64,000 nt of DNA, from assembly GCF_024494595.1 (NCBI RefSeq), contig NZ_JANHDI010000011.1, forward strand, positions 124,001 through 188,000, given 5' to 3'. Numbering within the stretch: the stretch's first letter is position 1; every line of letters begins with the position of its first letter. The stretch comes from Halobellus rarus. Lineage in GTDB: Archaea; Halobacteriota; Halobacteria; Halobacteriales; Haloferacaceae. Both the position numbers and the translations under genes were made by a program. The notes under the pieces are model-generated. The model was not told where the DNA came from, did not search any database, and saw nothing but the letters and a program-made list of their open reading frames with translations. This document shows positions 2,078 through 18,148 of the stretch, piece after piece.

Positions 2078-2365
2078 TGTACTGCGGTTTGGTCACGGAA
2101 GGAGTCCTCCTTGCTGCATAGTGATTCGTGAAACCAGATATCTCTCATCACGTATTAGAATTGTCGTTATAGTTATGATTATTGCAGTACAGAGAAGAGG
2201 ACAGCAGTCAGTCCCGAATATTCCACAGACAAAATACTGCAAATATATTGCAGGAATAGAGGCATCCGAATACTGGTATTTCAACGGTTCGAGAAAAACA
2301 TCAAGACCAAACCGTTGCAGAGTAACGCAACAGTTCTATAGGTGAGACAGGGAGAGAATAGCATA

Positions 2366-3013
2366 ATGCGAACATATATCGCTCCTATTGGCTATGATAG
2401 CACGCGCGTGACACGCCCGATACTCAGCCAAGGTATCGAGCGCGACACTCACATCGACCTCTTGATCCCGACCACAACAACAGACGATAGCCGTGGTGCA
2501 CAAGCTATCGACGACGTTCGTCGGATGGTCGAACAGATCGAACCGAACGTCGATGTCGGGACAACGGAAGTACCACACGACGACTTCGAAGCGGCGATCG
2601 AAGCCTGTGGGTCGCTCATCGACGACGCCAATGGTGAGGTCGTTGTCGTCTTCGGCGGTGGCGCCCGTGATATTTTCTTACCACTCACTGTTGCTGCTCT
2701 CTCGCGAACCCATCAAATCCACGCAAGCTACCAATTCAGCGATATCGACGGCGAGGTCCGGGAGCGTTCCCTCCCCAACCTTACTGCAAACGCACCAGCG
2801 CAGACCAGGTCGACACTCGAAGCTATCAGCACACTCGAGGAACCCGTCTCGCTCACCGCGGTTACTGACGCTGTTGATGTCTCAAAAAGCACCATCACCC
2901 GGCACGTGAAAGTTCTCGAGCGACAGGGGTTGGTCACATCAGAAACACACGGAAAAACGAAGGTCGTCGAGTTGACTACAACGGGTCGTCTACTCCTTTC
3001 ACGGACGTCCTGA
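2366..3013 (+). CDS. Csa3-like CARF-wHTH transcriptional regulator
   Basis: A 215-aa protein with an N-terminal Rossmann/CARF-type sensor (about residues 1-130, opening MRTYIAPIGYD, with the glycine-rich strand VVVVFGGGARDIF near 100) and a C-terminal winged helix (about 145-215: SLTAVTDAVDVSKSTITRHV, then a wing and ELTTTGRLLL). This is the architecture of Csa3 regulators, which are known to sense cyclic oligoadenylate and to control CRISPR or defence genes in archaea. ATG 2366 was chosen over an upstream GTG because the Csa3-type N-terminus begins there. No cas gene or CRISPR array is visible, so it is an orphan that may regulate the flanking island. It could instead belong to the related DUF6293 group of haloarchaeal regulators. 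Confidence 0.75.
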   Translation: MRTYIAPIGYDSTRVTRPILSQGIERDTHIDLLIPTTTTDDSRGAQAIDDVRRMVEQIEPNVDVGTTEVPHDDFEAAIEACGSLIDDANGEVVVVFGGGARDIFLPLTVAALSRTHQIHASYQFSDIDGEVRERSLPNLTANAPAQTRSTLEAISTLEEPVSLTAVTDAVDVSKSTITRHVKVLERQGLVTSETHGKTKVVELTTTGRLLLSRTS

Positions 3014-4598: not shown

Positions 4599-7487
4599 TT
4601 AGAATGAGTCACCTATCTCATCGAGAGAGAAATCTGATTCTTCGATTAAGCTACCAGCGGAATTTTGTTCGTATTCGATATCTGTGGGATCCTCGACAAT
4701 GCCGACGAAGACAAGCGACTCACCGAGATAGGTCACTGCATGGTTTGCTTCGTTAACCGTCACGCTCCCACCCCCTTTTTCAGTATAGATGAATGAGGCG
4801 ATATTCTGGTAGCTTTCTGACGCGATAAATTTCCGTCCGTCCTGTGTTCTGGTGAACGGACGGCCTTCAGCATCGACACTGAATTCGAATCCCTCGCTCG
4901 GTCCCGGATACGGGTCGCCTTGTGCTAACTCCTCGGGTTCTGGAATAGTTTGGCTCGTCGGAGGATCGGGGATTTCGTTGTCAGTCGCGGGTCTGAGATG
5001 ACCGGTAATCGCGTCTTCTTCGGTTTCCCAGGTGAGATGGCGCACCTCTGCCTGTGAGAGTTCTTCCCGCCAATCGTATCGCTCAAAGATGCTCGCATCA
5101 ACTGTATCTCGTGCGTAGAGAACGAACAACTCCGCTTGCTTGTTTGGATCTTCGCCGGTCCGAAGGATACGTCCGAGCGTTTGGATGCGTTGTCTGACGC
5201 TTCCCGAGGAGACACGGACGATACCCATATCTGCTGATGGGACGTCAACGCCTTCGATCAGTGCCTTCACACTCAGCATTACGTTTGCAAACCCGTCATC
5301 GCTGAACCACTCGATAGCAAAATCGTTCCAGGCCTTGTTCCGGTGTCCAGAGTGATACATAACGGGACGGTAACTCGCCGTGAAGAACAGTTCTTCCAGT
5401 TTCTCGTCAATACGTTTCAGTGCCGGGTATCGCTCGTAGAGCTGTGCTCGGTCTACGTCTGTCTCGGTGATTTCGCCAGTCCGTGCGTCACGGCCCCGTG
5501 TCTCCTTCGGGGCGACCATTCGCTCCAACTGCTCGATTCGTTCCTGGAAGACAATCGCTTTCTGCTCGTTGGCCACGCTTTCTTCGAGCAACTCCAGCGT
5601 TACGGCTTGCCGAGCGACGGCGTCAGCCACCAATTCTCGCCGCTCCTGTGTGTATTTGAAGTAATCCGAGATCGCTGGCGTCGCCCTGTCAGCATCGTTC
5701 CGTATGACTTGCAGTTTCCGTGAGAAACTCCCGCTGAGTTCGTATAACCGGTTCTGGTACTGTCTCTCGATATCCGTCACGGCGTCAACCACCGCATCGG
5801 TTAACCGCTGGTATGCCATCTGTTCGGCATCGGTGAGTTCAAACCCGACGTAATTAATCCGGAAGTCCGGAATGAGGCCACGACGTTGACCTTCGTCGTA
5901 CGACAGTTCATAATAAATTTCGCCGAGATTAGCCACCAACATCTCGTCTTCGGGACTCCGCTCGTCAGCAGCCGGGTCAGACAACGGGGTCGCAGAAAGA
6001 CCCAAGCTAGCTGTTCTGTGACAGTCGAACACCTTACCGAATGTCTCGCCGGTGTAACGATGACATTCGTCGGCTATGAGCAGATGCTCATTCACATCGG
6101 CCTTCCGAAGCGTCTGTGACAGCGAATCATTTTTCACCGCCGAATTAACGATCGAGACGAGGACCCGACACCCGTCCTCGAACCCGTCGTTGTGCCCATC
6201 GCCAAGCCATCCGATGTCGTCGGTCGGGATACCGAGTGTCTCGACCAGTTCTTCGAGCCACTGATGCAGAAGCACCTTCGTCGGAACGACGACTGTCACC
6301 ACACCGTTTGAGTGGTCGGCGAGCCACTGACGCAGAACTTCCAGAGCCATCACCGTTTTCCCAGCACCGGTCACCACCTGTGCGATACCACGCTCCGAGT
6401 CTGTCTTCTCACCAGTGAACCATTTTGTAGCGGCGTCTTCCTGCCAGTCGTACAGTTCGAACGCTTCGGGAAACGTGTACGCTTGCCGGTCTGGTGCCAT
6501 CGCTTCGAGAGTCGCTCGTGAGAACCCGCTGCCAGCACTTGCCTTCGCTCGCATCGCCGCAGCCTCGGTGTCCGCAGCGGCGATTTGTTCTAACATTGTC
6601 GTTGACAGTCCAGCGAGAGCTCGCGGGGTGAACGAATCGAACTCTGCACAGATGGTGTCACGGAGTTCTCGGCGATGTCGGCGTTGCTCGACGTACGTCT
6701 CTGACCGTTTGAGTTGCGGCTCCGATGTATCCGTCAACACGGACTCGTCGAGGTACTCTCGCCTGGCTGTATCGAGGAGTTGCCGGTGTTGGCTATGCCC
6801 ACCGGACTCACGGTACATATAGTACTTTGCGAGGTCGCGTTTCACTCGATCCGATGGCGGCGATGTGTTCGGCCCTTCCCGCTTGAGCCATTGCTCGAAT
6901 TGCCACAGAATATCCGCATTACGGAAGCGCTCACTGAATCGCTCCGGATTCGTCGTTTCGTACCCACCCTCACGGTTACGCAACGCGCCCATACCCTCCA
7001 ATAGCTGCGGATACCCGCGAATTCCCTCGTCGTTGAACTCGTATCCGTACTTTTCGCCGAGACGCGCCCGGATCGTGCCTCTACGGACTGGCTCGTCCGC
7101 CTGCTTCACGACGTGATGGATATCGTACAATCCCTCAATGCCTTCCGGGAAGGAGCCTTCTAGTGCCCACGATTGCTTGACAGCGTACCAGAGGAATGTC
7201 TCAAAATCCAACTCGTCCGACCGCCAGTCGTGGGCGAACTCGTGAACTGTGACTCCCTCTTGTGTTTGACGCAGGACACCTAGCTGGATGTACGTCGAAA
7301 CGATGCGGCGAAGATACTGCTCAGCGTATTTCTCTCCATCCGGTTTCAGTAACTGTGAGCGAGCGCGACGAACGAATTCGGATTTATCCAGTGGTTCAGT
7401 CGAAGCGATAGCAATGTCGACGAAGCACCGTGCTCTGGCTGCAGTCTCTTCTACGCCGAACAACGGTGGTGGAAAGCGTCGCCCCAT
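4599..7487 (-). CDS. XPB-like superfamily 2 helicase with N-terminal wHTH region and C-terminal beta module
   Basis: A 962-aa DNA helicase/translocase. Residues 1-330 are a helical region with winged-helix-like segments. The helicase core begins at YDWQEDA (about 346). Motif I is VVTGAGKT (371-378), motif II DECH (473-476) and motif III SAT (498-500). The second RecA lobe ends in EGVDVPSADMG and QRIQTLGRILR (motifs V and VI, about 735-775). This set is typical of XPB/type III restriction-like SF2 enzymes. The C-terminus (about 905-933) carries GGGSVTVNEANHAVTYL followed by VFVGIVED, which matches a module duplicated in the 294-aa and 298-aa proteins of this locus. ATG 7487 lies 3 nt after the upstream gene. 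No nuclease motif is visible, so cutting, if any, would come from a partner. Confidence 0.85.
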   Translation of the reverse strand: MGRRFPPPLFGVEETAARARCFVDIAIASTEPLDKSEFVRRARSQLLKPDGEKYAEQYLRRIVSTYIQLGVLRQTQEGVTVHEFAHDWRSDELDFETFLWYAVKQSWALEGSFPEGIEGLYDIHHVVKQADEPVRRGTIRARLGEKYGYEFNDEGIRGYPQLLEGMGALRNREGGYETTNPERFSERFRNADILWQFEQWLKREGPNTSPPSDRVKRDLAKYYMYRESGGHSQHRQLLDTARREYLDESVLTDTSEPQLKRSETYVEQRRHRRELRDTICAEFDSFTPRALAGLSTTMLEQIAAADTEAAAMRAKASAGSGFSRATLEAMAPDRQAYTFPEAFELYDWQEDAATKWFTGEKTDSERGIAQVVTGAGKTVMALEVLRQWLADHSNGVVTVVVPTKVLLHQWLEELVETLGIPTDDIGWLGDGHNDGFEDGCRVLVSIVNSAVKNDSLSQTLRKADVNEHLLIADECHRYTGETFGKVFDCHRTASLGLSATPLSDPAADERSPEDEMLVANLGEIYYELSYDEGQRRGLIPDFRINYVGFELTDAEQMAYQRLTDAVVDAVTDIERQYQNRLYELSGSFSRKLQVIRNDADRATPAISDYFKYTQERRELVADAVARQAVTLELLEESVANEQKAIVFQERIEQLERMVAPKETRGRDARTGEITETDVDRAQLYERYPALKRIDEKLEELFFTASYRPVMYHSGHRNKAWNDFAIEWFSDDGFANVMLSVKALIEGVDVPSADMGIVRVSSGSVRQRIQTLGRILRTGEDPNKQAELFVLYARDTVDASIFERYDWREELSQAEVRHLTWETEEDAITGHLRPATDNEIPDPPTSQTIPEPEELAQGDPYPGPSEGFEFSVDAEGRPFTRTQDGRKFIASESYQNIASFIYTEKGGGSVTVNEANHAVTYLGESLVFVGIVEDPTDIEYEQNSAGSLIEESDFSLDEIGDSF

Positions 7488-7490
7488 AAA

Positions 7491-8375
7491 TCACCAGTCG
7501 ATCGGATCATCCTCCGGGATCTCATCATCAAGATCATTTGCCGGGAGCGATTCGGTGTCTGGGCCATCCACAGTATGGTTGTCGACCTCTGTCTGTGATG
7601 TTTCACCGAGCGAATCAAGCCAACTATCGACTCCGTCACTCTGATCCTCAAATGGATCGGTCAGCGACGGTGGGTCACTAATGGAGAACGGGGTGGCTTC
7701 GACTTGGCCGGCGTAAATTGGGAGTTTCTGGACACCTCCGCGGTCACGTCGAAGGGCAATGAGGTTCTTCACCACTCGTGGAAGTGAATCGAATTCCGCC
7801 CGAGTTTGCGACGGGAGTTTATCTAAGTCAACAAGTGTTAGAACATCGTTCCACGGTGTGACCCGCAAGGAGCCTCCCTGCGGCTTATACCGCGATAATA
7901 TCGTCACTAACTCCTGTGAGAAAAATTCTTGGACTGGATGTCGCTTGTGGGTCTGTGGGTTGTCCCACCAGATCCGCTCAACGCCGGGTCCGAACGAGTA
8001 TTTCGCACCGTCATACACGCTTGGCCAGAAGTCACCAGGTTCCAAGCCATCGGGCTGTACTGGCACACTGAAATCTGGATCCTCTGGCGGGACCAACTCT
8101 CCGTTGAGGTCAAATCTCCCGATCCAGTGGGTCTTGTATTCGTCATCTTCTTCAGCCCGCGTAAGTACATCGTTGCCTTCTGTTATCCGAATACGGCCAC
8201 CGAGGCGTTTGAGTTCGAGTAGTGACTCGATGAGATCCCCAGGAGTAGGCTCTAAGTACAGTCGATCGGTTCCTTGGTAGGCTTGCCACCAGATATCGCC
8301 GTCAGGGTTCGTCCGAAGTCGATAGCCACGGTAATGCTCAGTCCATCTATCGCCGGGTTCGTATCTCGATATCAT
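7491..8375 (-). CDS. Duplicated beta-module protein, partner of the SF2 helicase
   Basis: A 294-aa protein of unknown family with two copies of one module. Copy 1 (about 5-95) has PGDRWTEHYRGYRL, then GGRIRITEGNDVLT and WIGRFD. Copy 2 (about 107-228) has PGDFWPSVYDGAKYSF, GGSLRVTPWNDVLT and LPIYAGQVE. The last 55 residues are acidic and low-complexity. The same module pair makes up the 298-aa protein at the far end of the opposite arm. It is transcribed first in the leftward operon, immediately ahead of the helicase. A TATA sequence 27 nt upstream predicts a leaderless start at 8375. I infer a shared scaffold or nucleic-acid-binding role. Confidence 0.75.
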   Translation of the reverse strand: MISRYEPGDRWTEHYRGYRLRTNPDGDIWWQAYQGTDRLYLEPTPGDLIESLLELKRLGGRIRITEGNDVLTRAEEDDEYKTHWIGRFDLNGELVPPEDPDFSVPVQPDGLEPGDFWPSVYDGAKYSFGPGVERIWWDNPQTHKRHPVQEFFSQELVTILSRYKPQGGSLRVTPWNDVLTLVDLDKLPSQTRAEFDSLPRVVKNLIALRRDRGGVQKLPIYAGQVEATPFSISDPPSLTDPFEDQSDGVDSWLDSLGETSQTEVDNHTVDGPDTESLPANDLDDEIPEDDPIDW

Positions 8376-8401
8376 CGGTAACTGGTGACGGTCAGAAGGA
8401 C

Positions 8402-8414
8402 CGTTTTATAATGT
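8402..8414. promoter_or_regulatory. Shared bidirectional TATA box of the divergent two-helicase locus
   Basis: GTTTTATAATGTA reads as a TATA box on both strands. It lies about 27 nt from the leftward ATG (8375) and about 22-30 nt from an ATG at 8434 on the right, the distances expected for leaderless haloarchaeal transcripts. One core element may therefore drive both arms. Confidence 0.5.
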
Positions 8415-8433
8415 ACTCACAGGGCCGAGATAT

Positions 8434-8472
8434 ATGTCTGACGACAAAATCGAGGGGCGAAAATATACTTGA
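8434..8472 (+). CDS. Twelve-codon upstream ORF or N-terminus lost by frameshift
   Basis: The ATG at the predicted leaderless transcript start opens a 12-residue frame (MSDDKIEGRKYT) whose TGA overlaps the TTG at 8469, the first possible start of the SNF2 frame. It may be a leader peptide that gates SNF2 translation, or the true N-terminus of the SNF2 protein separated by a one-base change. The acidic opening is typical of haloarchaeal protein starts. Both readings are inference. Confidence 0.3.
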   Translation: MSDDKIEGRKYT

Positions 8473-10340
8473 ACACAGGTCTTCGTGCGACGTGGTGTGA
8501 TTATCATACTCTGAAAGCGCAGCGTGACGTTTATCATTTAGGTGCCAGATGGTACGTGCAGATGCCACAAAAGGTGTCGAAATCCGGAACTTCTCCGGAG
8601 CTATCGTATTCTATCGATGACCCTTCGACTGCAGCAGAGGCACTTTCTACCGACACTATCAATGTGACAAGTCATCTCCTCAACGTTCAAGCGCGGGAGT
8701 TTGAAATCGCCCAAGGGCAACAAGAGTTACTCTCCGTCGAGGAGATTAAAGATCGGATCAAACTGCTGGACCACCAACTTCAGGCTGCTCACCGTGCGCT
8801 GTTCAAAATGAGCGGTGGGGCGCTGTTCGCTGACGAAGTTGGACTCGGAAAAACTATCGAGGTTGGAATGGTTCTGAAGGAGATGGATTTCCGAGACACC
8901 CGAGACAGCTTCCTCATCCTGACCCCGGCTCAGCTCGCACCTCAATGGCAGAAAGAACTGGACGAAAAGTTCGGACTGGACTTCGTCTGTAATTACGACG
9001 AGGACTTCTGTGGGTTCGATGCGCACGATAAGATCATAGCGAGTGTCGACACTGCCAAGTCGAAAACCAACAGAGACGATGTCCTCTCACGGCGATGGGA
9101 TGTTGCTGTTCTCGACGAAGCACACTATGTGCGCAACGCGGACACAATGCGGTACGAACTTATGGACGAACTGAGCTATGGGGAGGCGTTCTTTGCAACC
9201 GCGACACCGATTCAAAACGATATTTCAGATCTCTACAACATTATTGATCTCATCCGCCCCGGGATACTCGGAACCAGACAACAGTTCGACAACCGGTACG
9301 TCGTCGATAGTGACGATGCCCAAATCAAACGCAGCGAGGAACTACAAGAGAAACTCAATCGTGTGATGATTCGGAACCGTCGTGAAGAGACAAAAATCGA
9401 TTTCACGAATCGGAACGTCCACACGAACGTTTTTGAGCCTTCAGCGGCGGAAACCCAGTTGTACGACGCTGTCACGGACTATGTTCGGTCGAATTATTCC
9501 AGCGCTGATGCTCGGCACCTAGTGCTGTTCACCTTGCAGAAAGAAGTCGTTTCAAGCCCGTACGCGGTCGATAAGACGATTGAACGGTGGGTGGCTGACA
9601 AAGAAAAGGCCCTCTCAAAACGCGAACGGAACGCGCTGAGAGACATTCAGTCGATAGTCGATGATATCGCTCGGACGACCAAGCAGAAGCGGCTTCGACA
9701 TATCATCGAAACGATTCAGGATCAAATCGGAACGACCAGAGCCGTCGTGTTCACGCAGTTCCGTCCGACTCAAGATGCGATCGCTGACAGTATTCGCGGG
9801 TTAAACCTGCCGGTCCATATTGTGAACGGGGATCTCTCCAGCAAGGGGAAAGAACGGAAAGTGGCGCAGTTCAAAGACGAAGGGGGCATTATGGTTGCCA
9901 CGGACTCGATCAGTGAAGGCCGGAATATGCAGTTCTGTAACGTCTTAGTGAACTATGACTTGCCGTGGAATCCGATGAAAGTCGAACAGCGCATCGGGCG
10001 AGTCGATCGTATCGGGCAAGACCGTGAGGTCCACGTGTTCAATATGGCCTTGGAGGGCACGATCGAGGAACACGTCCTGAACAAACTGTTCGGGAAAATC
10101 GATCTGTTCAACCAGTCCATCGGTGGGCTCCGAGATATCCTCTCCCGGATGGAAAAGTCCGGTTCCGACTTCGAACGAGAGGTATTCGAACAGTTACGGC
10201 ACGCCGACTCTAAAGTCGAACTCGAAAACAACTTCGAGGATATGGCAGTCGATCTTGAACAGAACACTAAAGCTGCGGAGAAAATGAATGATTTCAACCG
10301 CGGTGTGTTCGACGGCTTCGATTTCGGTGAGAGTGTATGA
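8469..10340 (+). CDS. SNF2/RapA-type ATPase
   Basis: A SNF2-family DNA translocase of 623 aa from TTG 8469, or 592 aa from ATG 8562. Motif I is ADEVGLGKT (121-129), the Ia region is LILTPAQLAPQW, motif II LDEAH (215-219), motif III ATATPIQN. The second lobe has VVFTQFRPTQDAIA, ATDSISEGRNMQ and QRIGRVDRIGQ (motifs IV-VI). It resembles the helicase of RapA/HepA-like and DISARM DrmD-like proteins but is short, ending soon after lobe 2. The C-terminal domain such proteins usually carry seems to be the N-terminus of the next gene. The stop overlaps the next start (ATGA). The exact start is uncertain because the transcript start appears to lie at 8434. Confidence 0.88.
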   Translation: MNTGLRATWCDYHTLKAQRDVYHLGARWYVQMPQKVSKSGTSPELSYSIDDPSTAAEALSTDTINVTSHLLNVQAREFEIAQGQQELLSVEEIKDRIKLLDHQLQAAHRALFKMSGGALFADEVGLGKTIEVGMVLKEMDFRDTRDSFLILTPAQLAPQWQKELDEKFGLDFVCNYDEDFCGFDAHDKIIASVDTAKSKTNRDDVLSRRWDVAVLDEAHYVRNADTMRYELMDELSYGEAFFATATPIQNDISDLYNIIDLIRPGILGTRQQFDNRYVVDSDDAQIKRSEELQEKLNRVMIRNRREETKIDFTNRNVHTNVFEPSAAETQLYDAVTDYVRSNYSSADARHLVLFTLQKEVVSSPYAVDKTIERWVADKEKALSKRERNALRDIQSIVDDIARTTKQKRLRHIIETIQDQIGTTRAVVFTQFRPTQDAIADSIRGLNLPVHIVNGDLSSKGKERKVAQFKDEGGIMVATDSISEGRNMQFCNVLVNYDLPWNPMKVEQRIGRVDRIGQDREVHVFNMALEGTIEEHVLNKLFGKIDLFNQSIGGLRDILSRMEKSGSDFEREVFEQLRHADSKVELENNFEDMAVDLEQNTKAAEKMNDFNRGVFDGFDFGESV

Positions 10341-13300
10341 GCGTTGATGACATCAGTACACTCAACCGCTTAGAAATCCGCCGGTTCACTGCGATAACAA
10401 TCGAAGCATACGGAGGCGACGTTGACCGACGCAACGCGGATTCTTGGCAAGTTACACTTCCAGATCCACTCAGTAATCTCGCGGAATCGCCTGACGTTGC
10501 CGTGGTGTTTGACCCGAAAGACCAGCAACCTGGTCGTGATGAAATTCTCGTCCAACCCGGCTCCCTCGCGTTCAATCAATTACTCGAATTAGTAAAACAG
10601 GAGCTCTCAGTCGGTCAACTATACCTTACAGCGGCTGATATGCAGATCACTTTTCCCGACGTTCTCGATGTTTCCGAAACGACGGTGACGATTGACGAAT
10701 TTACTCCAGAGCAGACGGCTGACGCTGTCGCGTTTCATTTTCTGGTCGAGATGGAGAGTGTCTCGTCCTTCCACCGGGAGCGATTCGAAACCGTCACACT
10801 AGACCTAACAAACGGGAGTCCGCAACCCGACCTCACCGAGCGGTTACTAGCCCATACCAGCACGCTCAGCCGGTCTCACGAGACAAGCGATATCAATCCG
10901 GCGGGCGACACAATTGAACAGCGATACACGACAGCTGTCGAGGAGATTGAACGGCGAATCGAAGACGATGCGGCTGAGTTACTTGACGAAGCCACCGAAG
11001 CCGCATCGACTCGGGCGGAAGAAATCAGTGATTTGTACGACCAGCGACGGGAAGAACTCACAGACGAACTGCACGGTTCCGCGTTACGCCAACGACAGAA
11101 ATCGTTCGATAAACGTGAGCGAAACGAGATAGAGGATATGGTCAACCGGCACGATGTTAACGTAAACGTCTCGCTCGTCGGGATAACCTTACTCTCACAC
11201 GACGTTGGGAGCCTCACACTCTCGATTGACGACGGCGAACGTTCTGGTACTGCGGTGGCTCGATACGCACCCGCAACCGGGGACATCATTCGCTTCGACT
11301 GCGCGACCTGTGACACGCCGTTCGATCGACAAACCAGGCCGCAAGTTTGTGGGTGCGGGACTACCGTCTGTGCCGGTTGTATCAACGTCTGTGAGGCGTG
11401 TGGCGACACAGGCTGTCCAAATTGCGACACACCAGTGGCGGCCTGCGAGTTGTGCGGGCGCGTCGAATGTCACCAGTGTGGCTCAGTCTGCGACGAGTGT
11501 GGTAGAGCAGTGTGCACCAACCACATTGAAATATGTGCTGCAACCGACCACTCAACCTGTTTGGCCTGCGGTGAAGACTGTAGTAGCTGCGGGACGTTCC
11601 ACGCTGACTCGCAACTCCACCGGTGCCGTGTTGACGGCGACCTGCACTGTGACGCTCATTCTGGCACCTGTGATGAGTGCGCAGACACGCTTTGTGACGA
11701 TCATCTCCGGTCTTGTACTGCGTGTAAGATAGAGATCTGCCCTGCCGACCGAGTGACTTGTGAGACGTGCGGTGATACCCGCTGTCACGACGACGCCATC
11801 GCTTGTGACGGGTGCGGTGGGTATCACTGTGCTGAATCAGTTGAACGATGTGAGATCTGCACGAACCAATTCGGGACCGCTCATCTCTCTATGTGCGCCA
11901 CCTGTGACCGGAGTGTGTGTGCAACAGACTCCACGACCTGTGGTACCTGCGAAGATACGATTTGTACGGAGCACGCTATTGACTGCGCTGGTTGCAGTGA
12001 CGCGCTGTGCGCCACGCACAGCAACGAGTGTGAGATTTGCGCAGACTCTTTCGGGGCGCGACACCTAGTAGCGTGTGACACGTGCGGTCAAGAAATCTGT
12101 GAGACTGACCGCGGAGAGTGTCGGATCTGCGATGACATCGTCTGTACTGAGGACTCCGCGACCTGCACGGAGTGTAACGATGTCACCTGCCCGAGCCACA
12201 CTGATCCCTGTGATCTGTGTGCCGAAGTGTTCTGTGCTGACCATCTCGACACTTGTGCTACCTGCGGTGACGATATCTGTGAAACTGACCGGATAGAGTG
12301 CGCTGTCTGTGACAGTGTCACCTGTGATGTTCACGCAGAGACGTGTGACACGTGTGAAAAGGACTTATGTCCGGAGCACAGCGACACGTGCGCCACGTGT
12401 GGGGACCTCCTCTGTCCGGCTGACCAATCTCGGTGTACAGACCACGACGCTGTACTCTGCGACACGCACGCCAAGACGTGTGCCCAATGCGAGGAAACGT
12501 ACTGTGTTGACCTCGTTACTGACTGCGGGTACTGTGATGGCGTTGTTTGTCATCACCACGAAGAGACGTGTACCCATTCCAGTGAGACAGTGTGCGCCGA
12601 GCACAACCGGGCCTGCACCGTCTGTGAAGATGCGTTTTGCCCGGCGCACTCCGTCACCGCTGACGATAGCGACGAAGTCCGTTGTCTGGACCACGCAGCT
12701 GAATGTGCTGACTGCGAAAATCCGTTTACTCCCGAGCATCTGGAAGTATGTGATCGATGCGGCGAACACGTCTGTCAGGACGACCGAGCCGGCTGTGCTA
12801 CTTGCGGTGCGGTACTCTGCCAGACGGATCAAATTACGTGTACTGTCGACGGGAAACCACACTGTGCGTCCCACATCGTTCCCTGTGACACGTGCGGTGA
12901 GGGCGTCTGCGACGACCACGTGAAAACCTGTGCACACTGCGGCGATCTGTTATGCGACGATGACGCGACGATATGTACCACGTGTGACGAACCACATTGC
13001 GCGGCCCACACTGAGGAGTGTCTCAGTTGCGATGAACCGCATTGCGTCACTCATTCAGCCACCTGTGCGGAATGCGAGTTCACGTTCTGCATGGATCATG
13101 TAGAGGAGTGTCACAACTGCGGTGACCTCGTCTGCCACACTGACCGAGAAACCTGCGAATCCTGCGGCGAAACAGCGTGTCTCTCACACAGCGCAGACTG
13201 TATCCACTGTAAGGAGAGTTTCTGTGCCGATCACCACTTCCGTTGTGGCACCTGTAATAGCCCAATCTGTGCCGCAGATAGCACCGAATGCGTCGATGAC

Positions 13301-13777
13301 GAGGACCGGCACTGCGACGAGCACATCGCCACGTGCAGTGTCTGCCAACACGAGACCGACCGTGACCAGCCACGCTGTCAGAATCATCTGGAGCAGTGCG
13401 TCATTGACGAGGCGAACCTGTGTTCCGAACATACTCACATTGACCCGGTGCTACAGGAGGCGGTGTGTGCAGAGCACCAAACGACGTGTACCACGTGTCG
13501 ACAGCAGGTCGCCACTGCCGCTGTGGAAAATGGGGAGTGTCGCACCTGTCACGAGTTAGCTGAAAACGACTCACTACAGCCGGATGTCGAGGATGAACTC
13601 CCGGAGTCACTAAGTTTCCGCTCGATGGAGATCAGCACCAATCCGGCGTACGTCGTCGTCCACGGTAAACGGCTCGTTCGGTCGAACGAGACTATCGTGC
13701 TCGAACGCGACACCGGTGACATTATCGAACAGTATCGAACCGGGTTGCTTGCCCGGCTCTCCGGAGGGCGACTATGA
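10337..13777 (+). CDS. Giant cysteine-array (zinc-binding) protein fused to a SNF2-associated domain
   Basis: A 1146-aa protein. Residues 1-185 resemble the strand-rich tail domain that follows the ATPase in many archaeal SNF2 proteins (DVAVVFDPKDQ, then a PG..F.QLLEL segment), so the SNF2 protein may be split over two genes. Residues 190-275 are a charged coiled coil. Residues 322-1071 are an unbroken array with about 43 CxxC motifs in units of roughly 18-20 residues, of the form C-x2-C, a C-x2-D/H pair, then the next C. The tail (1072-1146) is a small globular domain. The array should bind many metal ions, probably zinc, as a long rigid recognition or docking arm. It is coupled by ATGA overlaps to both neighbours. 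I know no named family with this layout. Confidence 0.8.
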   Translation: MSVDDISTLNRLEIRRFTAITIEAYGGDVDRRNADSWQVTLPDPLSNLAESPDVAVVFDPKDQQPGRDEILVQPGSLAFNQLLELVKQELSVGQLYLTAADMQITFPDVLDVSETTVTIDEFTPEQTADAVAFHFLVEMESVSSFHRERFETVTLDLTNGSPQPDLTERLLAHTSTLSRSHETSDINPAGDTIEQRYTTAVEEIERRIEDDAAELLDEATEAASTRAEEISDLYDQRREELTDELHGSALRQRQKSFDKRERNEIEDMVNRHDVNVNVSLVGITLLSHDVGSLTLSIDDGERSGTAVARYAPATGDIIRFDCATCDTPFDRQTRPQVCGCGTTVCAGCINVCEACGDTGCPNCDTPVAACELCGRVECHQCGSVCDECGRAVCTNHIEICAATDHSTCLACGEDCSSCGTFHADSQLHRCRVDGDLHCDAHSGTCDECADTLCDDHLRSCTACKIEICPADRVTCETCGDTRCHDDAIACDGCGGYHCAESVERCEICTNQFGTAHLSMCATCDRSVCATDSTTCGTCEDTICTEHAIDCAGCSDALCATHSNECEICADSFGARHLVACDTCGQEICETDRGECRICDDIVCTEDSATCTECNDVTCPSHTDPCDLCAEVFCADHLDTCATCGDDICETDRIECAVCDSVTCDVHAETCDTCEKDLCPEHSDTCATCGDLLCPADQSRCTDHDAVLCDTHAKTCAQCEETYCVDLVTDCGYCDGVVCHHHEETCTHSSETVCAEHNRACTVCEDAFCPAHSVTADDSDEVRCLDHAAECADCENPFTPEHLEVCDRCGEHVCQDDRAGCATCGAVLCQTDQITCTVDGKPHCASHIVPCDTCGEGVCDDHVKTCAHCGDLLCDDDATICTTCDEPHCAAHTEECLSCDEPHCVTHSATCAECEFTFCMDHVEECHNCGDLVCHTDRETCESCGETACLSHSADCIHCKESFCADHHFRCGTCNSPICAADSTECVDDEDRHCDEHIATCSVCQHETDRDQPRCQNHLEQCVIDEANLCSEHTHIDPVLQEAVCAEHQTTCTTCRQQVATAAVENGECRTCHELAENDSLQPDVEDELPESLSFRSMEISTNPAYVVVHGKRLVRSNETIVLERDTGDIIEQYRTGLLARLSGGRL

Positions 13778-15051
13778 GCAACAGCGACCAATCTTTCTCG
13801 TGGTATAATCCGGAGAGCGTCCGTACGACAGTCGCCAATGGCAAAGCGAAGAGTATCGATCCGAGTCGGATAGCGGAGTATCTGGCACAACGCCAGTTTG
13901 CTGACATCCCGGTGTCCCGCGTCGAACGCATCGTCGATAACATACCGAGTTCTGAGGACACGTCAGCAGCGACAATTGATCTCTCACAACCCGAAGCAAC
14001 GGACGCAGAACCGCGTGCACCCGTAGCGAACCAACTCGCCGTTCACGATCTGGAGTACGTCTCGAACCGCGAGGCTGCTCGACTCATCGGGCTTGCACTC
14101 GAACAATTCGACGGGAACACGGTACGCCCGCCCGGTGCCACACGGGTAGAAACCGACCTTGTCTGGCATCGACAGCAAATGACCGTCGCGTTTCGTATCG
14201 TCCCAATCCCGTCAGGTGCTGTTGATACCAACCACATCGACGCCTTACTGGACGGTACGGTCGTGCCGGATGACGTCAGAAGCCCGTCCGAACTGGCAAT
14301 CGTCACTAATCAAGCGTTCACCGATGAGGCTCTCGATTCCGCCGTTGAACACGACATCCACTGTTTCGATGCCGGGCACGTCGAAGAATGGTTCCGCCGA
14401 GCCAGAATCCCAATGGGCGCCGTCGGTACACTGCTCGAAGACGGTGAATCTCACGATGGACCGCTGACCGACCTCGTCGAACTCCCACCAATTCCGGACC
14501 CGAGGAAGACCGTCGATCCCCTTGAAATCAATCGAGCGTTCGATATCGACTCGCTCACACCGCCTTCCGGAGATGACACCTCGCCCTCTACAGTTGAACG
14601 AACAGACGCGAACCAAGGCAAACAGGACACCGGACTTGGCCGTTCGACTGCCCGAGACGATCCGCTCGGCGGCACTCAACCCCCAGCCGGTGAAACCGGG
14701 ACGCTGTACGCAGACCCTGGTGAAGATGGCGATTTCGAGGCATTCGACCGGTTTGTCGATGAGATCACGGACGGAAACCAGCAATCCAACTCGACTACGG
14801 ATGAAACTGCGAACGCGGGAGCCAAAGAAGCCAACGAGTCAGATGACAAATCAACCACCTATGATGATGTCGACCGGAAAGAACTGTTGTTCGACCTCTT
14901 AGAAGCAACACAAGACGTCGACGGGAGAATGTCTCTGAAAGAGGTGCGAACGCATACCTCGTATCCAGTTGAGTATTATCTGAAAGAGTTCGGCTCGATT
15001 GCGGATGCGTTGGTCGCAGTAAATGTTGAATATTCGGAGGAGTCTCAATGA
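13774..15051 (+). CDS. Mrr-like restriction-endonuclease fold protein with altered active site
   Basis: A 425-aa protein. Residues 85-210 follow the Mrr_cat pattern: a helix (NREAARLIGLALEQF), a strand pair VETDLVWHRQQMTVAFRIV (126-143) and the characteristic LAIVTNQAFTDEALDSA followed by IHCFDAGHVEEWF. Active Mrr enzymes have D...(Q/E)xK; here D128 is kept but the second motif reads AFR (139-141), so catalysis may be lost or altered. Residues 215-370 are an acidic disordered linker. Residues 385-418 (MSLKEVRTHTSYPVEYYLKE, then FGSIADAL) resemble the homing-endonuclease-associated HNR repeat, a DNA-binding element. Overlaps of 4 nt on both sides place it third in the rightward operon. Confidence 0.65.
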   Translation: MSNSDQSFSWYNPESVRTTVANGKAKSIDPSRIAEYLAQRQFADIPVSRVERIVDNIPSSEDTSAATIDLSQPEATDAEPRAPVANQLAVHDLEYVSNREAARLIGLALEQFDGNTVRPPGATRVETDLVWHRQQMTVAFRIVPIPSGAVDTNHIDALLDGTVVPDDVRSPSELAIVTNQAFTDEALDSAVEHDIHCFDAGHVEEWFRRARIPMGAVGTLLEDGESHDGPLTDLVELPPIPDPRKTVDPLEINRAFDIDSLTPPSGDDTSPSTVERTDANQGKQDTGLGRSTARDDPLGGTQPPAGETGTLYADPGEDGDFEAFDRFVDEITDGNQQSNSTTDETANAGAKEANESDDKSTTYDDVDRKELLFDLLEATQDVDGRMSLKEVRTHTSYPVEYYLKEFGSIADALVAVNVEYSEESQ

Positions 15052-15944
15052 CGGCAACACTGAAAGAAGAGTCGACGAGCGTCCCGTTGGAAGATCAGAG
15101 ATCAGTCACGTTGAAACCAGGGAAACCATGGCCGTCCGCGTACCGCGGCTCAAAATACAGTCTCGTCTCTGACGACGACTTTAATGATGCCGTACTCAAA
15201 TGGGAGCAACGCGATCTTGCGATTTACACAGATCCACCGGATGGGTTACGCCGCACGCTCATTCTCCTCGGGAAAAACGGTGGGTACGGGAGTTTCCGAG
15301 TCACTGCTGACAACGAAGTCCTCACGAAAATCAAAGCCGACGAGTACAAACACGTAAATGAAGCCCCAGTCGATAAGGGGTGGATCCCTGTGTACGTCGG
15401 GAAACTCTCAGGCACCCTCGACTTCGATGAAATCGACTCAGACCCACTCACACCTCAGAAGAACCGCATCAAGGTCTGGAAAGGATTCCCATTCCACCAC
15501 GGGGAACGCTGGAGCGTCAGCCAAGACGGGGCCCTATTCTGGAAATGGAAAGACTACCGCTTCGACTCAGCGTTCGACCATCCAGAACTCATCAACGAAT
15601 ATCAAAAATACCGCGGAACAGCCGGTCGCCTCTACATCACAGAAAACGCGCATATTTGGGTAAACATCCCGAAAAACGATATCGCACCAGCGAAACAATC
15701 CGCTGTCCGGAACGCAATCAAAAAGTGGAAACGAGCAGCCGAGCAGGTAGACGATACAGCAACCCTCCGACTAGTCAACCGGCGACTGGTCGCCACGAGC
15801 GGAGACGACGATCCGTCCACCGGCCACTTCCCGATCCACCTTGGACAGCTAAGCGACTTCGACAACGGGGTCATCCCTCGACCAATCGTCGACGAATCAA
15901 GCTACTTCCAAGCCGTTTGCGAATACGAACACGTATGGGAATAA
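15048..15944 (+). CDS. Duplicated beta-module protein, last gene of SNF2 operon
   Basis: A 298-aa protein made of two copies of the module seen in the 294-aa protein of the opposite arm. Copy 1 (about 22-127) has PGKPWPSAYRGSKYSL, YGSFRVTADNEVLT and PVYVGKLSG. Copy 2 (about 150-275) has HGERWSVSQDG, AGRLYITENAHIW and FPIHLGQLSD; its NEVLT-type signature is more diverged. ATGA overlap couples it to the Mrr-like gene. Paralogues at both ends of the locus suggest that each helicase arm has its own copy of a common structural subunit. Confidence 0.75.
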   Translation: MTATLKEESTSVPLEDQRSVTLKPGKPWPSAYRGSKYSLVSDDDFNDAVLKWEQRDLAIYTDPPDGLRRTLILLGKNGGYGSFRVTADNEVLTKIKADEYKHVNEAPVDKGWIPVYVGKLSGTLDFDEIDSDPLTPQKNRIKVWKGFPFHHGERWSVSQDGALFWKWKDYRFDSAFDHPELINEYQKYRGTAGRLYITENAHIWVNIPKNDIAPAKQSAVRNAIKKWKRAAEQVDDTATLRLVNRRLVATSGDDDPSTGHFPIHLGQLSDFDNGVIPRPIVDESSYFQAVCEYEHVWE

Positions 15945-16144: not shown

Positions 16145-16687
16145 TCACTTACTGTATACGTCGCCGACCGTGGCGAAGTGATCGACAAGCGTGTCGACGG
16201 CGTCTTCGATGTCAGCTCGTGAGCTGACGTGGTTGTAAAAGACTTTATTCGAGTCGTACGGATTGTTGGAGATCTCCACGGCCCAATCGCCGGCTCGGGT
16301 CTGTTCGACGACACGCGTATCCTTGTCGGTGGCAGCGTTCTTGATTTTGTATCCGAACGCGCGTAACGCGCCGTCGATGTCCGTTCGGTCGTATTCCGTT
16401 GGCGGCATCCAGTACAGGTGGACGTTCAGTTTTTGATTCCCGCTGGGCGAGGCAGGCCCCGTCATTTGATGATTGATCCGGTGGAACGCTAACCCGTTTC
16501 TGGGGCTCTCGCTTGTTTTCACATCGGGGTTCAGTCCCGGTTCGAAGAGGTCGGGCTGGGCATCCACCATTCGTTGATCGAACTGTCGAAGGATCGATTC
16601 GATCTCGGCTTGGAACTGGTCGGTCAACCGGAGTGCTTTCAAGTATCGATCGTTCGTGAGGCCGTTGGTGAGGAAATCGTCTGTCAT
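16145..16687 (-). CDS. Hypothetical protein paired with PD-(D/E)XK nuclease
   Basis: A 180-aa acidic soluble protein of unknown family. It has an amphipathic N-terminal half (FLTNGLTNDRYLKALRLTDQ) and a strand-rich centre (KLNVHLYWMPP, WAVEISNNPY) ending in a helix. ATG 16687 overlaps the stop of the upstream nuclease-like gene by 4 nt, so the two are co-translated and likely form a functional pair, such as an effector with a specificity or immunity partner (inference). Confidence 0.65.
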   Translation of the reverse strand: MTDDFLTNGLTNDRYLKALRLTDQFQAEIESILRQFDQRMVDAQPDLFEPGLNPDVKTSESPRNGLAFHRINHQMTGPASPSGNQKLNVHLYWMPPTEYDRTDIDGALRAFGYKIKNAATDKDTRVVEQTRAGDWAVEISNNPYDSNKVFYNHVSSRADIEDAVDTLVDHFATVGDVYSK

Positions 16688-17781
16688 CGGGTGTTTTGTT
16701 GCTGCAGGTAAGTTAGTTGTCGGTCGATTGTATCGGTGAGCTGGTGTGGGCGAAGTGCCTCGACGACGTTCGCCGGCGAGGCAAACCGTTTCGCGTCGGG
16801 GTGGGACACGAAATTCAGGAGTTGTTGCTCCGCCACGGCGCAGAACAGGTACGCGTTCGCTGCCCAGTGGTCATCCACGATCTCCCCGGCACGCAGGAGC
16901 GTGCGGAGTGCAGTCGTGATATCTCGCCAGTAGCGGACTTCGACTGGGCCTGGATCGGTCCACGGAATACGGAGCTGGCCGTCCGGAGTCTGTTCGACTC
17001 CGGGACTGACAATCGCGTCAAGACGGTTGCGTTTCCGTTCTGGGAGGAGCAATACGTGCGTCCACTCCCGGTCGTCGTAGTGGTGTTCGACGAGTGCGGC
17101 TGTTTCGGCAGTCTTGCCGTAGTTCTCGTCGTCGAGTTTTACTTCGATCGAGATGCCGCGGTCGCCGTAACAAATTAACAGGTCCGCACGGCGTGGTCTC
17201 CCACCAGGGTTCGAGAGGCGTGCCTCCCGAATCACCTCGTCCGGCGGCCCCTCAACTGGAATGTCGAAGAGAGTAGCGATGAGAGCTCCGGCTGGCCGCA
17301 GGAGTTGGGCAAGCCACCGAGACCACGCGACCTCGTTGCTCGGGTGATACGGGCCGCGTGGAGTAGCTCCGTCGCTCACGTCGGTTGCGAGGGGGTCGGT
17401 ATCAAACGGGGCGTTGGAAGCTGACCAGACCGTGTTTGACCGCGCAAGCACTGCTGCAAGCCGAACCGCCGCATCAGTGCCGGTCTGTGCGTACAACTCC
17501 CACCAGTCATCAAGGTCCGCCCACGGGTCTGGTGACTGTTCCTCGGGAAAGACTTGAGACCAGGAGGTGTCGGCTGTCGGTCCGGAGTATCGAGCGGAGG
17601 ATTGCCACCACGAATCTACCTCGCTCCACCAATTGCCAACCCGGTCGCGTTCCACGACCCTGGCACCGTCGGACTGCGATGTGAGGCGGTGTGGCTGCGC
17701 AAGCGTGGCCCACCACGAATCAAGCCCCGCCCAGTCGGCAGGCCGTGCGTCTCTATCCACAAGAGAAGTTACTGTGGCCAT
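16684..17781 (-). CDS. PD-(D/E)XK nuclease-fold protein with W-rich N-terminal repeats
   Basis: A 365-aa protein from ATG 17781 (the frame continues to a TTG six nucleotides upstream). The C-terminal half carries a clean PD-(D/E)XK site: D200 in RRADLLICYG and E213-x-K215 in ISIEVKLDDENYGKT, a restriction-endonuclease-like DNA cleavage fold. The N-terminus has three W-rich repeats (17-29 WAGLDSWWATLAQ, 51-64 WWSEVDSWWQSSAR, 87-99 WADLDDWWELYAQ) spaced about 35 residues apart. These may be peptide-like docking motifs or a short helical repeat. It is coupled to the 180-aa gene and is plausibly a defence nuclease or part of the neighbouring helicase system. Confidence 0.75.
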   Translation of the reverse strand: MATVTSLVDRDARPADWAGLDSWWATLAQPHRLTSQSDGARVVERDRVGNWWSEVDSWWQSSARYSGPTADTSWSQVFPEEQSPDPWADLDDWWELYAQTGTDAAVRLAAVLARSNTVWSASNAPFDTDPLATDVSDGATPRGPYHPSNEVAWSRWLAQLLRPAGALIATLFDIPVEGPPDEVIREARLSNPGGRPRRADLLICYGDRGISIEVKLDDENYGKTAETAALVEHHYDDREWTHVLLLPERKRNRLDAIVSPGVEQTPDGQLRIPWTDPGPVEVRYWRDITTALRTLLRAGEIVDDHWAANAYLFCAVAEQQLLNFVSHPDAKRFASPANVVEALRPHQLTDTIDRQLTYLQQQNTR

Positions 17782-18148
17782 CGACAAAGGTGCTGTGCGA
17801 GAAGTGGCGGTCTGAGATGAAAGCCGACCACAATAGTTACGAACTTTGTGGCAGTGCCTCGCTGACTTCGCTTCACTCTTGACCTAAGGGGAGAATGTCA
17901 TAGAGTGGTTCCTATGCATTCCAATCGTCACGGACTGAATCGTTCAGTCCAGAGGAACGAATTAACACGGCGTGGGTCGAACTATCCAGTGGCTGTCAAG
18001 AACAGCGTGCAAGATACAGAGACTGAATCTCTCAGAAACCTCGTCAGAATAGTCGGTCGAAGTTCACAGAAAACCAGTGACTGGATTCAAAATAGCCTAA
18101 TATGCTAGGAAATTTGGTTCGAAATTCTATCCTCAGCTACCGTGAGAT
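17782..18148. other. Gene-free stretch between nuclease and OB-repeat genes
   Basis: About 370 bp with no supportable gene. It holds the upstream region of the nuclease pair and the 3' end of the 437-aa gene. Confidence 0.4.

Follow-up and report, generated by a model that had tools for sequence, protein, structure and literature searches.

A divergent two-helicase locus of Halobellus rarus, probably part of a composite defence-type system of haloarchaea

Results

Six tightly packed genes form two divergent arms

We analysed a 64,000-nucleotide stretch of the haloarchaeon Halobellus rarus (contig NZ_JANHDI010000011.1, positions 124,001 to 188,000 of the forward strand), hereafter the window, in which six genes, named A to F, make up a divergent locus encoding two helicases (Table 1). 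A and B run leftward and C-D-E-F rightward, and all six open reading frames were found at the coordinates given by an initial annotation of this DNA. The tight packing described there was confirmed, with overlaps of 4 bases each between C and D, D and E, and E and F, and 3 bases separating A from B. The same annotation had placed one TATA box common to both arms, which was not supported. In a close relative (locus L060; fetched loci carry the prefix L) and others, codons 1-31 of C as listed show no conservation, and C probably starts at ATG 8562. In the ~187-base gap between B and C each side has its own TATA-like element, TTATAAAA on the minus strand towards B and ATATAT on the plus strand towards C.

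Each arm carries a DNA motor, as annotated initially. A is an SF2 helicase (Pfam ResIII, 2.9e-22; Helicase_C, 1.9e-7) and C an SNF2 protein (SNF2-rel, 9.4e-33) near RapA. Walker motifs are invariant in both motors, with GAGKT (Walker A) and DECH unchanged in the A orthologues. The nearest solved relatives of the A core are XPBII/Rad25 (3.5e-22); unlike archaeal XPB/XPBII (Rad25), A has ~340 additional amino acids (aa) at its N-terminus and a module at its C-terminus, and is confined to this accessory system.

Table 1. Coordinates of the genes and features of the divergent locus in the window
Feature	Position	Strand	Remarks
Gene A, SF2 helicase of XPB/Rad25 and ResIII type	4599-7487	-	962 aa
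Module copy at the A C-terminus	4683-4946	-	aa ~848-935; hhalign against B module 1
Gene B, two module copies	7491-8375	-	294 aa; copies at 8100-8366 and 7680-8057
Divergent intergenic region B/C	8376-8561	.	compared with close relative L060 and others
Gene C, SNF2/Swi2 helicase core	8469-10340	+	623 aa as listed; ~592 aa from ATG 8562
Gene D, post-helicase domain, zinc array and short C-terminal domain	10337-13777	+	
Gene E, Mrr/PD-(D/E)XK fold, active site degenerate	13774-15051	+	425 aa; core at aa ~92-210
Gene F, two module copies	15048-15944	+	first copy 15087-15425

The six-gene set recurs and consists of two modules

A search with F in 194 haloarchaeal genomes retrieved 16 genomes, and an F profile search of 391 haloarchaeal genomes retrieved 24, of which 23 (~6%) had substantial copies. 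A was present in 22 of these 23 genomes, at full length in 21. The long E of the C-D-E-F arm was detected in 15 genomes; F was present in each of them and A in 14. Because the divergent order seen in the window was also found at nine further loci (L029-L032, L034, L035, L049, L061 and L062), with proteins ~25-86% identical across the recurring loci, the six-gene set is not a chance assembly. A colinear version, B-A-C-D-E-F, was seen once (L033).

Three arrangements were mapped: A-B diverging from C-D-E-F, as in the window; a B-F-A operon without C-D-E, found in 8 genomes; and B-F-A together with C-D-E-F (L045, L057 and L058). A compact C-D-E triad without A, B and F was reached via short E homologues and inspected in five cases, all in other haloarchaea; Halocatena salina carries such a triad. 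The two arms are separable modules, A-B-F and C-D-E, and the single system put forward by the initial annotation stands in part: B-F-A and the compact triad do occur apart, but the long C-D-E-F arm is accompanied by A in all but one of the 15 genomes, and on that ground we consider the six-gene composite a real unit.

A public scan returned only Halobacteria, among them Halorientalis, Haloarcula, Haloferax, Halopenitus, Halarchaeum, Halorussus, Halorubrum and Haloquadratum. Plasmid-borne copies were found in Halorhabdus, Haloferax, Halobaculum, Natrinema and others. Decayed copies were frequent (L037, L043, L044, L051/L065, L059, L073 and L075), and that at L060 was interrupted by a transposase-like gene.

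One domain in five copies links A, B and F

The initial annotation had noticed a duplicated small-module protein in each arm. B and F are indeed homologous, but a further copy of the module, in A, had been missed. Profile comparison revealed one domain in five copies, two in B, two in F and one at the C-terminus of A. The hhalign probabilities were 98% for B1-B2 (1.9e-13), 97.5% for B1-F1, 98% for B2-F1 (1.2e-14), 91% for B2-F2 and 93% for B1-A (2.9e-7), with unrelated segments, used as controls, below 2%. The module profile recovered the copy in A (2.5e-19) and, over 197 genomes of the phylum, matched only A, B and F of the three genomes among them that have the system. No match was found for B, F or the module in Pfam, PADLOC, NCBIfam and PHROGs. 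This unnamed domain, defined here, appears to be diagnostic of one system.

Structure models of F and of a single module reached a predicted local distance difference test score (pLDDT) of 88.6 and 89.8, respectively, the five single-module models being alike, with a predicted topology beta-beta-beta-alpha-beta-beta-(alpha)-beta. Neither model gave a significant PDB or viral fold match with Foldseek. Sliding clamps (PCNA/9-1-1/beta-clamp) recurred in the lists at E 0.3-1.6 and Z ~3, below the tool's meaningful level, and thus give only a hint that the module may have a clamp-like fold.

In a tree of F two clearly distinct clades were seen, of which one is linked to C-D-E (0.90) and the other to B-F-A (1.0). 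The F linked to B-A is gone in the window type, where the right-arm F appears to work for both arms.

The right arm contains a split BrxHII/RapA-type helicase with an extended zinc array

The simplest relatives of the right arm are gene pairs on haloarchaeal plasmids, where a C homologue (54-58% identical) is followed by a protein of 385-397 aa, here called D0. Over its whole length D0 is homologous to the N-terminus of D (99.9%, 5.6e-38), and it ends in one zinc ribbon. C aligned with the BrxHII core with a probability of 100% (8.3e-43; 32% identical in the profile alignment), and aa 1-320 of D correspond to the BrxHII/RapA-type post-helicase domain. For the match of D to the haloarchaeal BrxHII post-helicase region, the full D N-terminus, compared while half of the BrxHII translations were from the wrong strand, gave 1.6%, a trimmed and corrected version 72%, and the profile to which the proteins of the C-D0 pairs had been added 97% (3.7e-11). 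Since C matches the BrxHII core, and the D N-terminus and D0 the region that follows it, C and the D N-terminus together represent a single SNF2 helicase of BrxHII/RapA type, encoded in two pieces by neighbouring genes. The Halobellus rarus genome also has a full BrxHII-type helicase elsewhere (1925 bits, C24:171149-174049). PHROG 36169 matches the D N-terminus (1.4e-9), and a distant pair was found on cyanobacterial plasmids (C 33% identical, partner weakly similar).

The zinc array follows the post-helicase domain of D (aa ~322-1071, ~11300-13549). There are 136 cysteines and 44 CxxC motifs in D; 27 of the 43 intervals are exactly 15 residues, and 6 are 30. The number of CxxC motifs is 1-2 in the C-D0 pair, 16 in the triad, where D is 675-676 aa long, and 33-48 in near-complete copies of the combined form; C is 54-59% identical between triad and combined form. 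The direction of this series, from pair to triad to combined form, was read from the distribution of the forms; along it the zinc array would have grown about twentyfold.

The C-D0 pair adjoins genes for a DUF1156 methylase and a DUF499 ATPase, with AddAB-like genes frequently nearby as well. The DUF499 and DUF1156 proteins match NCBIfam anti-phage-associated families, below cut-off. Such an ATPase and methylase are parts of the DUF499-centred BREX-Related (BR/Hma) systems (PMC12839542). The loci with C-D0, DUF499, DUF1156 and AddAB-like genes (L108-L117) resemble haloarchaeal split-helicase BREX-Related/Hma systems. In the DNA examined, tblastn gave no DUF499 match in the window or in the combined and compact loci, the only matches being those beside the C-D0 pair, and no DUF1156 methylase match there either; one separate weak DUF1156 match lies downstream of B-F-A in L078.

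E has lost the Mrr catalytic residues wherever it is linked to A, B and F

In the compact triad E is ~217 aa long, and the Mrr motif GDxGVDVVW...QAK is intact in 6 of 6 copies. In every long E, including the one in the window, the Q has given way to A, G or S, and R, H, L or A often stands in place of the K. Because Q-x-K is lost in every A/B/F-linked copy, E in this form is not a working nuclease. An active nuclease in E, considered as a candidate, was ruled out by this comparison of long with intact short E. Of the Mrr-like, nuclease-fold subunit described initially, the fold therefore stands and the nuclease does not. The window E ends with one weak HNH_repeat copy, and at L046 (188-3241) a fusion joins E to eight or more HNH_repeat domains, which are associated with homing endonucleases, and to a helix-hairpin-helix.

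The loss of the catalytic residues also bears on whether the modules work together. B-F-A and C-D-E(-F) could be two independent systems sharing an island and a regulatory region, and not a machine, as their separate occurrence in the 8 and 5 cases above would suggest; moreover, other genes lie between the two modules at L058 (AddAB-like genes) and L057 (PbeC/PbeD and others). However, E is degenerate only in the combined form, A is present with nearly every long C-D-E-F arm, and A-B stands beside C-D-E-F without an F of its own, apparently relying on that of the other arm. We consider such independence unlikely.

Comparison with known systems

When the six proteins were compared with PADLOC, NCBIfam, Pfam and PHROGs, only the helicase cores matched, at scores far below the cut-offs of named systems. 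As no gene passed a curated cut-off and no description of the gene set was found in the literature searched, the system can be called undescribed, as the initial annotation had it. The lack of a match to BREX and DISARM noted there is correct as far as cut-offs are concerned, but C and the D N-terminus form the split BrxHII/RapA-type helicase described above, whose simplest relatives lie in a DUF499/DUF1156 BREX-related (Hma) context. The likeness to BrxHII, the BREX type 3 helicase, lies in these two regions, and PglZ, BrxC, PglX and other DISARM components are absent from the six proteins. DISARM DrmD cut-offs were far from reached by C (253.7 bits against 950 for NF038318, 242 against 610 for NF038317), and of the DrmA/DrmB(DUF1998)/DrmC(PLD)/methylase set no Pfam match to DUF1998, PLD or a methylase was found in the six proteins.

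The BR/Hma systems share with this locus an SNF2 helicase with a BrxHII/RapA-type post-helicase domain (PADLOC HmaA matches C, 5e-51). Here, the helicase is divided between two genes, and a zinc array, a dead Mrr protein and the A-B-F module are added.

PbeABCD, one of the CxC ABC ATPase/DndE-anchored systems, is found in haloarchaea and has an A-like helicase; it is reported to block virus DNA replication without visible cleavage (PMC6459918); the absence of cleavage has been disputed, the HKD domain being expected to cut (PMC10853773). A matches PADLOC PbeA (3.8e-44) over the helicase region only. PbeA consists of an HKD/PLD nuclease fused to an SF2 helicase, whereas A has no PLD match, and B and F match no Pbe protein. 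PbeC and PbeD are absent from the six genes, from the window (tblastn) and from the window-type combined loci.

The coupling of an SNF2 motor to an Mrr-type nuclease in the compact triad recalls ZorD of Zorya. In contrast to Zorya, the genes are separate, there is a zinc array, and the E of the combined form is inactive. ZorA and ZorB had no match among the six proteins, and the ZorD cut-off was not reached (NF041790, 97 bits against 1500). Taken singly, the right arm is a BREX-Related/Hma helicase that has been remodelled, and the left arm is a new SF2 module; with their new domain, the two probably make a new helicase-based defence variant.

Genomic context

In only two genomes (L036 and L057) B-F-A adjoins a PbeC-type CxC ATPase, a DndE-like protein (PbeD) and an SF2 helicase. 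At L036 (4955-16712) a ~1034-aa ATPase, proteins of 470 and 256 aa, the SF2 helicase, PbeC and PbeD are encoded directly upstream of B-F-A, in what is possibly another composite cassette. B-F-A adjoins DndC at L041. At L042 (Natrinema pellirubrum, 7738-12499) a long prokaryotic Argonaute (pAgo) of 847 aa and a PLD-like protein lie immediately upstream of B-F-A; the PLD-like protein has a P-loop-like segment, and its gene likely forms an operon with that of pAgo. NERD-like and ribbon-helix-helix-like proteins precede B-F-A at L038 (9292-12424) and also at L039, L040 and L063. The 92-100% identity of this pair in the four genomes suggests that the whole cassette was recently transferred. AddAB-like UvrD and PD-(D/E)XK genes were found near 7 of ~29 loci; only 21 of 97 genomes have an AddA of this kind, so that far fewer than one such neighbourhood would be expected by chance.

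With PbeC/PbeD, DndC, pAgo and NERD as neighbours, the context is defence-like, in agreement with the anti-mobile-element setting proposed initially. Patchiness, carriage on plasmids, decay and neighbours of this kind usually distinguish defence genes from housekeeping genes. A complex for chromosome maintenance or transcription, such as RapA-like RNA polymerase recycling, or for plasmid maintenance, would fit the proximity of C to RapA and the ParA/ParB or Orc1/Cdc6 genes that adjoin some C-D0 pairs on plasmids. It is nevertheless very unlikely, given that the locus is missing from ~94% of haloarchaeal genomes, repeatedly decayed and set in defence neighbourhoods, and that the pair form accompanies DUF499/DUF1156 genes resembling restriction-modification genes.

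A probable composite defence-type system

We infer defence from the defence neighbours, the patchy distribution, the plasmid-borne copies and the decay, and the locus is probably a composite defence-type system, hitherto undescribed, built from two modules and directed against viruses or plasmids. In Module I (C-D-E), a Swi2/Snf2 DNA translocase of the BrxHII/RapA/Hma type would have been divided between C, the motor, and D, a post-motor subunit; D would have gained its long zinc array with a 15-residue period, and an Mrr-type E would have joined and later lost its catalytic residues. Module II (A-B-F) would supply a second translocase, the XPB/Res-like SF2 protein A with one module copy, along with B and F with two each. 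Given the duplication of F and the fixation of one of its copies within the C-D-E operon, F would link both motors into one assembly. The C-D zinc arm and the dead nuclease E could recognise or hold the DNA of an invader or the complex replicating it, on which the A-B-F motor would act. Replication or transcription on the invader would be stripped or stalled, an outcome we favour with modest confidence over classical cutting, since none of the six proteins was recognised as a conventional active nuclease and since PbeABCD, with its A-like helicase, offers the reported, though disputed, case of a block without cleavage.

The main rival to such a non-cleaving block is an ATP-dependent restriction that cuts DNA through an unrecognised nuclease or hydrolase in the second half of F or the N-terminus of A. 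Among 32 F sequences the second half of F contains an invariant or nearly invariant set, H151-G-E153, H178-x-E180 and E199-x-x-H202, which could be a metal or active site, and most known relatives of these helicases act together with a nuclease. These residues may equally be structural; no Pfam or PHROG match and no significant Foldseek fold was found. Cutting of this kind seems possible, if somewhat doubtful.

Several points weigh against the composite, non-cleaving system as drawn here. The neighbouring genes may merely reflect shared islands. A nuclease may be hidden in the A N-terminus or the F His/Glu set, which makes the non-cleaving step weak, and the idea of one complex derives solely from the linkage of the arms and the shared F. 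In addition, the F profile found no viral relatives in IMG/VR, and F found none in the phage records, which were also searched with the D N-terminus and D0, again without finding a relative, although the D N-terminus does match PHROG 36169 as given above.

A bolder form of the non-cleaving system would be a nuclease-free machine in which two translocases of different families are yoked by the five-copy domain, which might encircle DNA as a clamp-like ring; the former Mrr protein would serve only to read DNA and the zinc rod as recognition arm, and replication or transcription complexes would be stalled or stripped. We regard this version as quite unlikely.

Whatever its outcome, the locus belongs to a series that can be followed from a known pair with a restriction helicase, through a triad with an intact nuclease motif, to a presumed larger complex with a dead nuclease. 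This makes it testable whether an ATP-dependent defence can switch from cutting to non-cutting, a question already raised by PbeABCD.

Other genes in the window

An overlapping gene pair at 16145-17787, apparently the PD-(D/E)XK pair of the initial annotation, gave no Pfam match and had no relative at the other loci of the system. On the other side of the locus, a Csa3-type CARF/HTH regulator (2342-3013; Csa3_N, 1.3e-12) lies beside two unannotated genes (1191-2096 and 324-1187). The same regulator and two genes are present at L037 (12242-15127), near a decayed F/C copy, and are followed there by a ~1016-aa gene.

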